The notes below the pieces were generated by a model, which did not search any database, was not told where the DNA came from, and worked only from the letters and a program-made list of their open reading frames with translations. From assembly GCF_027943945.1 (NCBI RefSeq), contig NZ_AP027141.1, positions 2,852,001 through 2,916,000 of the forward strand: a stretch of DNA of 64,000 nt, written 5' to 3'. The stretch comes from Microbacterium terricola. Its GTDB lineage: Bacteria > Actinomycetota > Actinomycetes > Actinomycetales > Microbacteriaceae. Of the stretch, positions 26,185 to 40,506 are shown piece by piece. A program made the position numbers and the translations under genes. Each line of letters starts with the position of its first letter. Position 1 is the stretch's first letter.

Positions 26185-27765
26185 GTGCCAACCGTTCATC
26201 GGCCCTCTGTCACTCGCGCGCGCCGCTGGCTGATCGCGATCGCGGTGACGGTCCTGTTGGCCCCCCTCTCCGTGGTCACGGCCGCCCCTGCCATGGCGGC
26301 GACCGCCTCGCTCTCTGGTCGCGTCCTCAATGCAGACGGCAGCCCCGCAAGCGGGGTGTGGATCGACGCGTGGCGGCTGGGCGCGTCGAGCTCGGCGGAC
26401 AGAACGCGGACCGACACCCAAGGCGAGTTCGTCATCCAGGGCCTCCGGGCAGGGGGGACGTACCACCTGTCGGTGGTGACCGGGCGGGACGAGGGGTACG
26501 CGACTGGTTTCTTCACGGGAGACCGCGCGGACCCCGAGAGCGAAGACAGGAGCCGTGCACGCGTGTTCCTCGCCACCTCATCGGTGCGTGGCCGGATCAC
26601 GCTGCAAAGAGAAGCCCGAACCTCCGTGTCGGGGGTCTTCGTCAACGCCGACGGAACACCCCGTGCCAACGCGGAAGTCTACGTCTACGGAGTCGTCGAC
26701 TACACCCATGCGCCCGTCGGCGAGGGCCCGTTCGGCCCTACGCACACCACCCGGACCGCCGCCGACGGGACGTTCACCGTGCGCGGGCTCGAGACGAGCG
26801 GCGACGAGTTCGACGGTCACGTTGTCGCACTCCACCGCGGTCTGACCGGCTGGAGCGGCTTCATCGGGGAGGATCCATCAACCGGGCTCGTCCCGGCCGA
26901 TCGCGCCCGCGTCCACCCGCTGACGACGGCGCCGATCGACGCCGGGACGGTCACCATTCCGGTGGCCACCCTTCCCGCCGATCAGATCGTGCTCGGACAG
27001 GGGCTCACCGTCGACAACGCCGGGACGGGCGCGGCGAACGAGATCATCGCGGTCAGCGGCGGCACGCTCTCGGCTTTTCCTGTACATGACGGAGTGGTGC
27101 AGCCGGGTATCCCGATCCGCAGCGGCCTGAGCGGTCAGAAGATCTACGCGCCCGGCAATTGGGGACGCAACGACTACTTCTACCGTCCAGAAGGCGCAGA
27201 GACGGTGCCCAGGGACGACATCATCGGCGTCGACGGGAGCGGCGACATGTTCCTGTACGAGGGCGACGGCTACGGCTACCTCCGCCCGCCGGTCAAGATC
27301 GGTTCGGGATGGCAGCATCGCCGCCTCACCTTCTCCGCCGACCTCGACGGCGACAACCGGGCTGACATGCTCTCGATCGACAAGAACGGGGTGCTCAGGC
27401 TCCACCGCGGCAACGGGAAGGGCGGGTTCGTCTCGCCGTCCCACCGGGTCTCCACAGGATGGAAGGGTGACCACCTGTTTGCGGCAGGCGACCTCAACGA
27501 GGACTACAAGGCCGACCTCATCTCGGTCGACTCGAGCGGGGTCCTGTGGACGCATCTCGGGCGCGGGAACGGGACATTCCGGAAGCCCATCCGAGTCAGC
27601 AGCGGCTGGAAGTCCCTCACGATCGCGACAGGCGCCGACATCGACGACGATCGGCACTACTACGCCGACATCGTCGCCCGGGATGCCACCGGCCGCCTGT
27701 ACCTGTACTCCGGTCGGGGTGACGGCCGGTTCAAGACCAGGAAGCTCATCGCGACAGGCTGGTGA
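26185..27765 (+). CDS. secreted protein with carboxypeptidase-regulatory-like and FG-GAP/VCBS repeats
   Basis: A 526-residue exported protein. Signal peptide with basic start (RARRWLIAIAVTVLLAPL) and cleavage near AMA-ATA at residue 38-39. Two beta-sandwich units of the carboxypeptidase-regulatory-like/CNA-B type follow (ASLSGRVLNADGSPASGVWI; SVSGVFVNADGTPRANAEVYVYG). From about residue 340 come at least four FG-GAP/VCBS blades with D-x-D/N-x-D-x-x-x-D calcium loops (DLDGDNRADMLSID, DLNEDYKADLISVD, DIDDDRHYYADIVA), expected to form part of a beta propeller. GTG start with GGAG 5-10 bases upstream and a TAGACT -10-like box at 26152. Probably a surface or extracellular binding protein; it has no enzyme domain. 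Confidence 0.8.
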   Translation: MPTVHRPSVTRARRWLIAIAVTVLLAPLSVVTAAPAMAATASLSGRVLNADGSPASGVWIDAWRLGASSSADRTRTDTQGEFVIQGLRAGGTYHLSVVTGRDEGYATGFFTGDRADPESEDRSRARVFLATSSVRGRITLQREARTSVSGVFVNADGTPRANAEVYVYGVVDYTHAPVGEGPFGPTHTTRTAADGTFTVRGLETSGDEFDGHVVALHRGLTGWSGFIGEDPSTGLVPADRARVHPLTTAPIDAGTVTIPVATLPADQIVLGQGLTVDNAGTGAANEIIAVSGGTLSAFPVHDGVVQPGIPIRSGLSGQKIYAPGNWGRNDYFYRPEGAETVPRDDIIGVDGSGDMFLYEGDGYGYLRPPVKIGSGWQHRRLTFSADLDGDNRADMLSIDKNGVLRLHRGNGKGGFVSPSHRVSTGWKGDHLFAAGDLNEDYKADLISVDSSGVLWTHLGRGNGTFRKPIRVSSGWKSLTIATGADIDDDRHYYADIVARDATGRLYLYSGRGDGRFKTRKLIATGW

Positions 27766-27788: not shown

Positions 27789-28871
27789 TCAGCCGATCGG
27801 CGGCCCCGCCGGCGGGATGTAGTCGCACGGAGCTCCGTTGAGGAAGAAGTCCTTGGGCGGCAGGAAGGTGTCGGTGGCGCTCGCGATGTGCACCTGGCCA
27901 GGCTCGGCCTCACCAGGTTCGATGATCGACCAGCTCCAGGGGATGTAGGTCACGACCTGACCGCTTTGGGTGATCGACTCCGCCTGCCCCGACGACGGAT
28001 ACTTGACCTGCTCGTCACCGGTCCACGACCAGACGAGCACCCACCGTTCCGGTGACGCCGTGATCGCCGTACCGGTGTTGTTGGTGATCGTGAAGTCGAT
28101 GATCGCCTCGCCCGGCCAGTGGTGGTAGACGCCCTTGACCGAGCAGGTCCCCGACGGAGGCGGAGTCGTCGTGCCCATCGCCCACGTCGCGAGCGCGCTC
28201 GATCGGTCGGAGAACGCCGCATGCGAGGAGCGCGCGACACCGACGACCACCACCAGCACCGCCACCACGAGCATGGCGATCACCACTCCGGCCTCGAGGA
28301 CCGAGTGCGTCGCCGCGCTCTTGCGCGCATTGGGCAGGAACTCGATACGGAGCGTGCCACGCACGAGGAGCGCAGTGAGCAGGACGGTCGCGACGATCAG
28401 CAGGATCGCGCCCTGGACCGCCCAGACGATGGGCAGCCCGATCGCCGGCACCAGGATGCTGCCCACGCCGATGACATTCGCCGGGTGGACCGGGGTCGAA
28501 TCGGCCGATTCGTTGGCGTCGCCCTTGGTGACCAGCATCCCGTCCTCACGCACCTCGATGATGCGGTGCATGATCTGCTGCTCGGGGTGGCTCGGATCGA
28601 TGAACAGGATCACCTGTCCGAGTGCGTACTCCTCCACAGGCCACACCAGCGCGACGTCGCCCGGCTGGATCGAGGGCCTCATCGATCCGGTCACGACGGT
28701 CGTTCCGATGAAGCCGAACGGACGCGGCACGAACGCCGCCGCGAGGAGCGTGAGGATCATGCAGAGGACGCCCCAGCACACCGCCACGCGGATGAGGACG
28801 GGCCAGCTCAGATCCTCGATCGGACGGCCGCGCCAGCCCGGGGCCGGCGCCTGCCGCCGCGGGGTCGTCAT
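27789..28871 (-). CDS. SipW-type signal peptidase I fused to a substrate-like secreted domain
   Basis: A 360-residue membrane protein. Residues 23-47 are a helix, followed by the signal peptidase core TGSMRPSIQPGD with catalytic Ser63 and MHRIIEV with His102 in place of the usual Lys (archaeal/ER/SipW type), and KGDANESAD near 118. A second helix is at about 138-172. Then comes a third helix (about 194-213) ending in HAAFSD, exactly the kind of site cleaved in SipW-dependent substrates, and a 140-residue beta-rich domain with Cys243 and Cys349. So one chain holds both enzyme and a substrate-like part. Ten bases after the camelysin-like gene, same operon. At 39131-40506 the same two parts are separate genes. 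Confidence 0.85.
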   Translation of the reverse strand: MTTPRRQAPAPGWRGRPIEDLSWPVLIRVAVCWGVLCMILTLLAAAFVPRPFGFIGTTVVTGSMRPSIQPGDVALVWPVEEYALGQVILFIDPSHPEQQIMHRIIEVREDGMLVTKGDANESADSTPVHPANVIGVGSILVPAIGLPIVWAVQGAILLIVATVLLTALLVRGTLRIEFLPNARKSAATHSVLEAGVVIAMLVVAVLVVVVGVARSSHAAFSDRSSALATWAMGTTTPPPSGTCSVKGVYHHWPGEAIIDFTITNNTGTAITASPERWVLVWSWTGDEQVKYPSSGQAESITQSGQVVTYIPWSWSIIEPGEAEPGQVHIASATDTFLPPKDFFLNGAPCDYIPPAGPPIG

Positions 28872-28881
28872 GGCCGGCAGG

Positions 28882-29460
28882 TCACTGGCTCTGGGCCTCC
28901 CAGACGAACGTGACGTCGGCGGCCGCGCCCTGAGGCGCGGTGTCCAGCACCTCGTACGCAACGGTGTACGTCTGGGACTGGCCATCGGCGAGGACGACGG
29001 GGAGGATGCCCTGCGAGAAGTCGGTGATCGCCTGGAGGTCCGCCAGCGTCCCGGTCCATTCGGCAGGGTTCGCGGGCTGGCCGGCCGAGGTGATCGTCAG
29101 CTGGATGTGATCGGCCAGATCCTGCGCCGCACCGGAGCCCTCGGAGTAGAGCCGCACCTCGGAGTCGATCGTCCCGCCGGTGTAGTTCACGACGATGTCG
29201 GAGGTGCCCGTGTCGCCGGGCGTCAGGTCCGTCTCGGTGAAGACCGCCGAGCCCTCGCTGTCGTTCGTGAGGTCGATGGTGCCCGTCGAGAACGAACTCG
29301 AGCCCGTGCCCGTCTGGGCCGTGAACGCGGCCATCGACGCCTGGTAGATCAGCACCCCCGCGACGATGATCGCCACCGCGATGATGATCGTGAGCACCCA
29401 GAACCGGGCTCCGCGTCCCCGTGACGGCTCCTCGGGCCGTGTCTCCGCCGCATCCGTCAT
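28882..29460 (-). CDS. camelysin/TasA-like SipW-dependent secreted protein (locus 1)
   Basis: A 192-residue protein with a cytoplasmic acidic start, one membrane segment (residues 20-40) and the sequence ASMAAFTAQTGTG right after it, which is the pattern of SipW-type signal peptides. The rest is a beta-sandwich (FSTGTIDLTNDSEGSAVF, DLTPGDTGTSDIVVNYTG) like TasA/camelysin, a family that forms surface fibres or acts as casein-cleaving surface protein in Bacillus; the role here is unknown. ATG at 29460 has SD GGGAGG 8 bases upstream. It directly precedes the fused signal peptidase, its likely processing enzyme. Confidence 0.8.
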   Translation of the reverse strand: MTDAAETRPEEPSRGRGARFWVLTIIIAVAIIVAGVLIYQASMAAFTAQTGTGSSSFSTGTIDLTNDSEGSAVFTETDLTPGDTGTSDIVVNYTGGTIDSEVRLYSEGSGAAQDLADHIQLTITSAGQPANPAEWTGTLADLQAITDFSQGILPVVLADGQSQTYTVAYEVLDTAPQGAAADVTFVWEAQSQ

Positions 29461-38574: not shown

Positions 38575-39099
38575 ATGTCTTCGCGCGACCGGACGGACCG
38601 GAAGGACCGGCGCAACACCATCATCCGCATCTCGATCGCCGGACTCGCGGTCTTCGGGATCGGCGCCGCGATCACCACCGCCGCGTGGACCGACCAGGTC
38701 TGGTTCGCCGCCGAAGCGGACGTCGCCTCTCTCGATCTGAAGGGCAGCACTACGGCCACCGGCCCGTGGGACGACTACGCCACCGAGGGGGACGCCCTCA
38801 CGATCCCCGTCTCCGCGTCGGACTTCGGCGCCCTCCAGCCGAACCGCACCTACGAGATGGAGGTCTACGTGAAGAACGCGGACACCGCCGACGCCACGCT
38901 GACGGTGGACGCCGACCTGACGGGCGCGATCGCCGACGCCGGCTCGACCATCACGGTCGACGCCGTGGCCGCCGAGACCGCTCTCGCGACCGACGACGTC
39001 ACGGCGGTCACCATCACGCTGACCACCGGCGACATCCCGGCCACGCTCCAGGGCGCGACGGGGACCGCGCTGGTCACCGTCACCGGAACCAGCAGCTGA
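38575..39099 (+). CDS. camelysin/TasA-like SipW-dependent secreted protein (locus 2)
   Basis: A 174-residue protein: basic/acidic head MSSRDRTDRKDRRN, one hydrophobic segment (residues 15-34) and TTAAWTDQVWFAAEAD after it, the SipW-type cleavage pattern (here AA-W-T-D, compare AA-F-T-A and AA-F-S-D in locus 1). The mature part is a small beta-sandwich (LTIPVSASDFGALQPNRTYEMEVYVKNADT), rich in Thr, Ala and Asp. Probably a surface-exposed structural protein. AAAGGA SD upstream, and a strong TATACT -10 at 38482. First gene of a three-gene operon with SipW. Confidence 0.8.
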   Translation: MSSRDRTDRKDRRNTIIRISIAGLAVFGIGAAITTAAWTDQVWFAAEADVASLDLKGSTTATGPWDDYATEGDALTIPVSASDFGALQPNRTYEMEVYVKNADTADATLTVDADLTGAIADAGSTITVDAVAAETALATDDVTAVTITLTTGDIPATLQGATGTALVTVTGTSS

Positions 39100-39130: not shown

Positions 39131-39667
39131 ATGAGCACCGTCGTCGGCCGCGCCCTGCGCGCGATCAGTTCCGCCGTGCTGTGGCTTCTCGTCGCCGTGG
39201 GCGTGCTCTGCGGCGGGCTCTGGGCCGCGAACGCGGCGGGGCTCGTCCAGCCCCTCGTCGTCGCCTCGGGCTCGATGTCACCCGGCATCCGGACCGGCGA
39301 CCTCCTGTTCGCCACGCCCACCCCGGCCTCCGAGGTCGCGGTGGGCGAGGTGACCACCCTGCACAGCGAGGTGACCGGAAAGCTGGTCACCCACCGGGTG
39401 ATCGAGATCACCCGGTCGGGCGACACCGTCTCGGTGCGCATGCAGGGCGACGCGAACCAGGCCGCCGATCCCGAGGCCTACGTCGTCGACGCCGACGCAT
39501 CGGTCTGGCAGCCGACGTGGACCATCCCGGGCGGCAGCTACGCCGTCATGACGCTGATGCGCCCGGCCGTCGCGATCCCCGGCATGCTCGGGATCCTCGC
39601 CCTCGTCGGCCTGACGCTGCTCCCCGCCCGTCGCCCCGCGGTGGCACCCGAGGCGGTGCCGGCCTGA
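39131..39667 (+). CDS. sipW: SipW-type signal peptidase I
   Basis: A 178-residue membrane signal peptidase with two helices (residues 10-38 and about 140-165). Catalytic Ser48 in VVASGSMSPGIRTGD and His88 in LVTHRVIEI, plus QGDANQAADPE, mark the archaeal/ER-like SipW class that uses Ser-His, not Ser-Lys. It likely matures the camelysin-like protein upstream and the 279-residue protein downstream, which it overlaps by one base (TGATG). The symbol is by family likeness only. Confidence 0.87.
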   Translation: MSTVVGRALRAISSAVLWLLVAVGVLCGGLWAANAAGLVQPLVVASGSMSPGIRTGDLLFATPTPASEVAVGEVTTLHSEVTGKLVTHRVIEITRSGDTVSVRMQGDANQAADPEAYVVDADASVWQPTWTIPGGSYAVMTLMRPAVAIPGMLGILALVGLTLLPARRPAVAPEAVPA

Positions 39668-40506
39668 TGAACGGTCTCGCGCGCGCCGCCGCAGGCGCTG
39701 CCGCCGCCGTGGCCGTCCTGCTCGCGGCGGGCAGCGTGACGTCGACCAGCGCCGCCTGGACGGACTCCGTGCACGTCGCCGCTGCGACGGACGTCGGCAC
39801 CTGGGCCGACCAGGAGCCCGACATGAACGGCCCGTTCGAACCGGGCGAGCCGAGCACGGTGATCGGCCAGGCGTCATGGACGATGCCCGCGACCAACACC
39901 TCGGGCTACTGCGCCGCACTCACCATCACGACGACCTCGCCCACGCCGATCCCCTGGTCGATGATCATCCACCTCGATGAAGCGCCGTACTGGGGCGCCG
40001 CCGGCATGATCTGGGGACAGGACGTCGAGGTCACTCCGGTATCCGGCGACCCGACCCGCGCCGTCGTGACCGGCCGGTATCCCTACGAGACGATCGCGGC
40101 CGGCACGGTGCTGACCACGAGCATCTGCAACGCCAACGCCGTGGCACCCCCGGTCGGCGACCCGGACTGGTACACCGTGACGACCGCGGTCAAGGGAACC
40201 TGGACCGCCACACGAGCCTGCATCGACATCACTGTCACCGGGCGGCGCGACCTCGCCGAGTATCCGTACTTCTTCGGCTGGACGACCACGGTCGACCTCT
40301 CGGCGGCCAAGGCGGCCATGACGGCCGCAGGCGGGCACGTGAACCACGTGGACTGGTCGCCCGCGCCGTCCGGCGGGTACGCGTTCACGGTCGATCCGTC
40401 GTCGAACAGCCCCGTCGCCGACCGCTACACGCTCACCAGCGGGACGATCACCGCGCTCCGCGGCACGCAGAGCCAGACGATCACCGTCTGCGTGAACGGC
40501 TACTGA
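39667..40506 (+). CDS. SipW-dependent secreted beta-rich protein
   Basis: A 279-residue exported protein. An Ala-rich hydrophobic segment (residues 5-25) ends in TSTSAAWTDSVHVAA, the same AA-W-T-D cleavage pattern. The mature part is a Thr/Val-rich beta protein with Cys residues (SGYCAALTITTTSPTPIPWSMII; TTSICNANA; TRACIDITVTG). Its place right after SipW, and its layout (Cys, then a strand with NT/TT-T-x-I-x-x-W), resemble the C-terminal half of the fused protein at 27789-28871. Function unknown; adhesion or carbohydrate binding are possibilities. Confidence 0.78.
   Translation: MNGLARAAAGAAAAVAVLLAAGSVTSTSAAWTDSVHVAAATDVGTWADQEPDMNGPFEPGEPSTVIGQASWTMPATNTSGYCAALTITTTSPTPIPWSMIIHLDEAPYWGAAGMIWGQDVEVTPVSGDPTRAVVTGRYPYETIAAGTVLTTSICNANAVAPPVGDPDWYTVTTAVKGTWTATRACIDITVTGRRDLAEYPYFFGWTTTVDLSAAKAAMTAAGGHVNHVDWSPAPSGGYAFTVDPSSNSPVADRYTLTSGTITALRGTQSQTITVCVNGY

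Follow-up and report, generated by a model that had tools for sequence, protein, structure and literature searches.

The 64,000-nucleotide stretch of Microbacterium terricola DNA analyzed here, which we call the window, encodes on its minus strand a 360-aa protein (27789..28871, start codon at 28871) that combines a SipW-type signal peptidase and a CBM2-like passenger in one chain. All features of this chain are given on the same strand. It begins with a first membrane helix (residues 23-47, 28731..28805; predicted model), followed by a catalytic domain (residues 58-146, 28434..28700; profile match to SEC11A/SEC11C) in which sequence position places the catalytic residues Ser63 (28683-28685), His102 (28566-28568), and Asp118 (28518-28520), and by a second membrane helix (residues 156-178, 28338..28406; predicted model). 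A third hydrophobic helix (residues 186-215, 28227..28316; predicted model and sequence) may act as an internal signal sequence. Behind it lie a predicted, TasA-like cleavage site, S-x-A218|A219-F220 (28215..28220), and a donor-strand-like mature N-terminus (residues 219-231, F220 to W230, 28179..28217). A short Pro/Thr linker joins this peptide to a CBM2-like beta domain with Cys243 and Cys349 (residues ~243-352, 27816..28145; model, Pfam, Foldseek, and profile). In the model of the fused chain the beta domain is well predicted, and the junction (residues 210-238) is at low confidence (pLDDT <50). A preliminary description of this DNA had given the same, correct coordinates without a strand. 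It had also named a SipW-type signal peptidase with Ser63 and His102, a third hydrophobic helix ending in AA-F-S-D (A218-A219-F220-S221-D222), and a C-terminal beta domain that it left unnamed, all of which we find. On the plus strand, a convergent neighbor (26185-27765) encodes a protein that looks secreted and has carboxypeptidase-regulatory-like domains as well as FG-GAP repeats.

By its profile matches, the front half of the fused protein is a SipW/archaeal-type signal peptidase I, for which cleavage of signal peptides is predicted: TIGR02228 scores 70.7 bits over residues 35-165, above its cut-off of 51.85, and a profile of 14 relatives matches SEC11 chains over residues 58-146 (SEC11C, E 1.3e-7). 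SEC11A and SEC11C, the catalytic subunits of the eukaryotic signal peptidase complex, are enzymes of the Ser-His and not the Ser-Lys type. Their likeness to the fused protein lies in this profile match and in the Ser-His type; they are not known to carry a passenger. Ser63, His102, and Asp118 are invariant across the alignment of the 14 relatives, which came from a protein search and are free of pattern selection bias. In the 40 aligned fused proteins of the larger set described below, GDAN (117-120) and Asp124 are invariant (40/40), as are Ser63 and His102, an invariance that is partly built in because the pattern used to pick the open reading frames (ORFs) demands both. TIGR02228 was matched at E 0.01 by all 40 fused proteins scanned; five of the eight shown singly fall under its cut-off. 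The source genome holds two TIGR02228 matches, the fused gene and a separate peptidase at 39131.

The passenger is termed CBM2-like, and not a CBM2 member, because the Pfam CBM_2 match of the fused protein (PF00553, E 1.9e-4) reaches 22.1 bits, under the gathering score of 24. The best Foldseek row for the passenger is the CBM2 fold of 6qfs (E 3.4e-9, TM-score by target 0.88), and the family profile matches 1exg with E 7.7e-15. Fold and sequence profile are thus those of the CBM2 cellulose-binding domain of Cellulomonas fimi (1exg, 6qfs), with the difference that the C. fimi domain is attached to a glycoside hydrolase and the one described here stands behind a signal peptidase. The CBM2-like passenger may bind sugar, with cellulose and chitin as candidates.

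Directly upstream of the fused gene, across a 10 bp gap, lies a gene for a camelysin/TasA-family protein (28882..29460, minus strand; predicted mature start 29328). Its product scores 27 bits against PF12389 (gathering score 22.5) and is the one PF12389 match of the source genome. A second locus on the plus strand comprises a SipW-type substrate-like protein with predicted cleavage A|AWTD from the site scan (38575..39099), the separate SipW-type signal peptidase (39131..39667, 178 aa, TIGR02228 73.2 bits), and a two-domain beta protein with an AAWTD site in its sequence (39667..40506). The last two genes share a single base (TGATG, with the stop at 39665-39667 and the start at 39667). The order 'substrate, SipW, substrate' fits both loci, with the second one split. 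In the 127,996 six-frame residues of the window AA[FW][ST][DA] occurs six times, and four of these follow a hydrophobic stretch, namely those in the fusion, 28882, 38575, and 39667; the preliminary description had listed these same four proteins as sharing the motif. Its further step was to read the fusion as a Rosetta stone, from which the 39667 protein would be a substrate of the split peptidase. The separate, overlapping genes and the shared AA[FW][ST][DA] site hold up, and the proposed correspondence of the bodies may not: at the sequence level we found no similarity between the fused passenger body and the 39667 body (E 0.15). The 38575 and 39667 proteins resemble each other in no more than a 20-residue stretch spanning the cleavage site (55%). 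In a quick tree of 107 rows the split peptidase sits on a long branch away from the fused one. The extension from the fusion to 39667 is the weaker part of that interpretation, which overall is partly supported.

The fusion recurs in many actinobacteria. The preliminary description had proposed a search across Microbacteriaceae, and searches wider than that gave 57 fused ORFs, the window's own among them. The fused protein had a match in 160 of 299 genomes of its family, many to the peptidase part alone, and TIGR02228 exceeded its cut-off in 100 of 396 genomes of the phylum; from the profile search of named genomes the best 80 of 540 stretches were kept. The loci fetched contain 142 distinct ORFs (differing in the 80 residues from the Ser motif onward) with the SipW pattern, which requires Ser-Met and His-Arg/Lys. 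Sixty-three were flagged as fused, for a third helix followed by 80 residues or more, and 57 remained after six were removed by eye: L134 for its low-complexity tail, L157 and L171 for tails that look unrelated, and three from Pseudobutyrivibrio (L158, L160, and L162). A later scan of L160 (6923-8149) shows a sortase domain (PF04203, E 2.5e-9) behind the SipW-type peptidase, a further case of two peptidases in a single protein, and by eye L158 and L162 are like it. The proportion of 57 in 142 is no natural frequency, since loci were picked partly by similarity to the fused protein and long frames, and 57 is an undercount because at least L069, L118, and L121 carry >230 residues behind GDAN. 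L045 and L140 also look fused by eye and fall below the helix threshold. For the 39 loci without a row, a looser pattern yields an ORF in 21, all with Ser and His and four of them apparently copies of listed ones, and no call for the other 18.

Open frames of the fused kind occur in several actinobacterial families, and hosts include Agromyces, Curtobacterium, Frigoribacterium, Microbacterium testaceum, Marmoricola, Actinokineospora, Cellulomonas, and an acidimicrobial MAG. The passengers are of many kinds: the 40 of the 57 fused proteins that were aligned and scanned matched Laminin_G_3 (13), Ice_binding (4), RCC1 (2), and CBM_2 (2), and the rest matched other families once each or none. Against the TafC fimbrial protein NF052521, five of eight proteins scored 15.9-26.6 bits in the passenger, below its cut-off of 410 bits. 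Among the homologues, P0078 continues from a SipW-type peptidase into a lamin tail domain, and P0040 into a body that by eye ends in LPITG and a hydrophobic tail. Two Actinokineospora fusions (L125:6914-10378 and L129:6890-10318) have passengers of ~900 residues, with several LamG-like repeats visible by eye in L125. Two fusions from the same genus as the window (L093:3478-4659 and L095:3352-4554), each the sole TIGR02228 match in its genome, have no junction aromatic; their passengers end in LAATG or LAGTG, a hydrophobic tail, and an Arg-rich end, resembling a cell-wall sorting signal, and the sorting-signal model NF058582 matched L093, weakly, and not L095.

In the quick tree, from which P0033 and P0034 (two of the 14 protein rows meant for it) were left out because they have no pattern, 49 of 68 fused rows sit in one group of 56, and the label 'fused' needs 10 changes, at least 4 of them forced by starred branches. 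A dead-end or accidental fusion without function would agree with the sporadic occurrence of the CBM2-type fusion, which among the matches listed for 119 genomes of the genus is found at full length in the window's own genome only. Set against the catalytic residues kept in the 14 relatives and the open frames in several families, we consider such an accident very improbable.

The junction is conserved at specific positions. In the 14 relatives P3 is Ser or Ala, P1 is Ala, and P2' is Phe or Trp (14/14 each), P2 and P1' vary, and a Trp follows the P2' aromatic by ten residues (eleven in three) in 14/14. According to PMC10269814, an aromatic residue at P2' makes a site a poor substrate for LepB, and TasA, which has Phe at P2', is cut by SipW; the poor cleavage of TasA by LepB is there attributed to Trp at P2. 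In the fused protein P2 is His, and Trp at P2 occurs in none of the 14 aligned relatives. In the larger set, a loose cleavage regex matches 48 of 57 fusions, and is weak evidence alone because 518 of 1091 passenger windows match too. Among the nine fusions it misses, six have the aromatic one or two places off and three (L073, L093, and L095) have none. In 54 of 57 fusions the 20 residues ahead of helix 3 hold more Lys and Arg than those following it, as expected for an outward passenger.

Based on these sequence features, we consider it likely that the passenger is cleaved off by the chain's own peptidase. The alternative is that the passenger is never cut, or only slowly, that helix 3 anchors it for display on the membrane, and that the upstream camelysin-type protein is the sole substrate of the peptidase; were the donor-like peptide functional while tethered, the chain would then form the membrane base of a fiber. 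Helix 3 (186-215) is indeed long enough to span a membrane, and junction cleavage is itself a prediction. Against tethering, a small P3, an Ala P1, and an aromatic P2' are kept in 14/14 relatives while P1' and P2 vary, and the LAATG/LAGTG motifs and hydrophobic tails of L093 and L095 would be odd on a chain that is already anchored. We therefore regard permanent tethering as unlikely.

Conservation extends past the predicted cut into a peptide that resembles the donor strand of TasA. In TasA fibers, each mature N-terminus supplies a donor strand (28-38) that inserts into the next subunit and makes contacts through F29, I32, and F39 (PMC9674648); F220 and W230 of the fused protein are 10 residues apart, the same spacing as F29 and F39. 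The accessory protein TapA starts with AFHDI where TasA starts with AFNDI, and biofilm formation was proper in a strain that secreted no more of TapA than residues 44-57 (PMC10151520). In the 48 of the 57 fusions with a regex site (an earlier version with n=50 still included the set-aside L158 and L162), a large hydrophobic residue stands at +10/+11 from the aromatic in 44, compared with 3 at +8/+9 and 7 at +12/+13, and a second peak lies at +17 (19/48). At +3, the position of TasA I32, 7 of 48 have one, which is no peak, and I32 is without a counterpart.

The fused genes tend to adjoin SipW-substrate-like genes. Such a gene (same strand, within 1.5 kb, signal-like helix and site) lies upstream in 42 of 57 fusions; none was found in the other 15, with at least 600 bases to examine in 54 of the 57, and the upstream partner of L014 was missed by this count and is visible on separate inspection. 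Among the unfused SipW ORFs, 46 of 79 have such a neighbor on one side or the other. Gene order varies, and in L085, L096, and L079 a SipW-substrate-like gene is found downstream of the peptidase or two are found ahead of it. We scanned 30 neighbors: 28 of the 42 upstream ones, the downstream one of L085, and that of the set-aside locus L134. PF12389 was matched at E 0.01 or better by 19 of the 30 and TasA NF046066 by three, and the two best PDB rows were TasA 5of1 and 8aur, with weak E-values (0.034 and 0.044). The SipW-dependent signal TIGR04088 was matched by one of the 30 (E 0.0052) and by none of six window proteins scanned at E 1.

To compare the two kinds of protein at their N-termini, a 17-position profile built solely from the mature N-termini of the 30 neighbors was slid along each fused chain. 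Its best 17-mer falls behind helix 3 in 52 of 57 fused chains (4.1 expected by length), a test that ranks positions within each chain and counts related sequences more than once. Forty-four of the 52 are in register (position 2 aromatic, or Leu in L073), six are shifted by 1-3 places, and in two (L018 and L095) the best position is off the expected site. With the first two profile positions masked, so that the cleavage motif is no help, the peptide still ranks first in 35 and within the top three in 52 of the 57. The window's own fused protein scores only -2.5 bits, one place off register, yet this is the best position in its chain. Passengers with unlike bodies thus share their first ~15 residues with the adjoining fiber-type protein.

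These observations bear on a further alternative, in which the passenger is freed as a secreted lectin-like protein and the conserved peptide plays no part in a fiber, reflecting instead extended recognition by SipW or common descent of the front part. Several passengers do match sugar- or surface-type families, and the SipW-dependent signal is a known family, though it was found in so few neighbors. Conservation of at least 10 residues past the cut, which should lie beyond the reach of the peptidase active site, and the frequent upstream partner both argue against a free lectin-like protein, to which we give about the same low probability as to permanent tethering. Entry of the passenger into a camelysin fiber by donor strand is, judging from the shared peptide, plausible.

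In addition, we observe that passengers change behind a fixed front. The fusions of Agromyces larvae and A. intestinalis (P0020 and P0022) are identical in 201 of 207 residues through the donor-strand Trp and in 37 of 115 residues of the passenger after it. The two loci (L185 and L186) have matching surroundings: in 100-base windows, identity is 0.73-0.99 upstream (minimum just before the gene), 0.93-0.99 in the peptidase, and 0.50-0.63 in the passenger, falling right after the codon of the donor-strand Trp, and the DNA beyond the passenger is, after a gapped stretch, mostly 0.8-0.96 identical. Either exchange or very fast divergence could have produced this change. Three metagenome proteins, from short contigs in which assembly error is possible, are identical in 228-229 of 230 N-terminal residues and have passengers 31-43% identical. 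We also compared 18 pairs, some of them overlapping, whose peptidases are at least 80% identical. In 16 of these the passenger has diverged more than the peptidase, as would be expected anyway when one part is an enzyme, and in all 18 it has diverged more than the upstream protein.

Overall, the fused architecture, its recurrence, the conserved junction, the upstream partner, and the shared N-terminal peptide are well supported. We propose, with a probability of roughly 60%, that the fused peptidase releases a TapA-like passenger, swappable and tipped with a donor strand, for a camelysin fiber, with both cleavage and fiber entry as predicted steps. Helices 1 and 2 would hold the catalytic domain on the outer face, and helix 3 would insert as an internal signal sequence with its positive side in and the passenger out. 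The cut would follow Ala218, in cis or on a neighboring copy, and the same fused peptidase would process the camelysin-type 28882 protein in trans. The freed passenger would start with AFSDRSSALATW, a peptide of the kind that the camelysin-type neighbors carry and that serves as donor strand in TasA fibers. Composed of donor strand, Pro/Thr linker, and CBM2-like domain, it may start, cap, or tip the camelysin fiber as an accessory. We use 'TapA-like' by analogy, for a protein that would work like TapA as described in the literature, and not for family membership.

Among the closest known arrangements is the tapA-sipW-tasA operon of Bacillus subtilis, which likewise places a SipW-type peptidase beside a TasA/camelysin subunit and an accessory with a donor-strand-like N-terminus (PMC9674648; PMC10151520). 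In our case, however, peptidase and accessory are one chain, the body is not the Ig domain of TapA but CBM2-like, LamG-like, ice-binding-like, or other, and bodies change behind a fixed front part. For B. cereus (sipW-tasA, calY, and capP), the model of PMC13082335 has SipW process two subunits and a fiber-starting accessory; these are separate secreted proteins, and the excerpt of that paper mentions no fusion, whereas here a single chain is found. TasA-like systems in general have been described as widespread (PMC10903470). Among the titles and abstract starts listed for the open literature we found none on a SipW-type peptidase fused to a passenger, which is no proof of absence.

More tentatively, and with somewhat less confidence than even odds, we suggest that such genes encode self-launching fiber adhesins of actinobacteria, in which one gene paired with a camelysin gene would unite peptidase, internal signal, donor strand, and exchangeable surface domain. 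The launcher would stay fixed and passengers would be swapped as cassettes, giving many tips per fiber system. If true, TasA-like donor-strand fibers would extend to a widespread two-gene form in actinobacteria, with a modular launcher whose passengers may range from CBM2-like to ice-binding-like domains. The fusion would also offer a natural experiment with protease and substrate in one chain, and it would predict that some entries annotated simply as 'signal peptidase I' comprise two proteins, the second being a surface protein.
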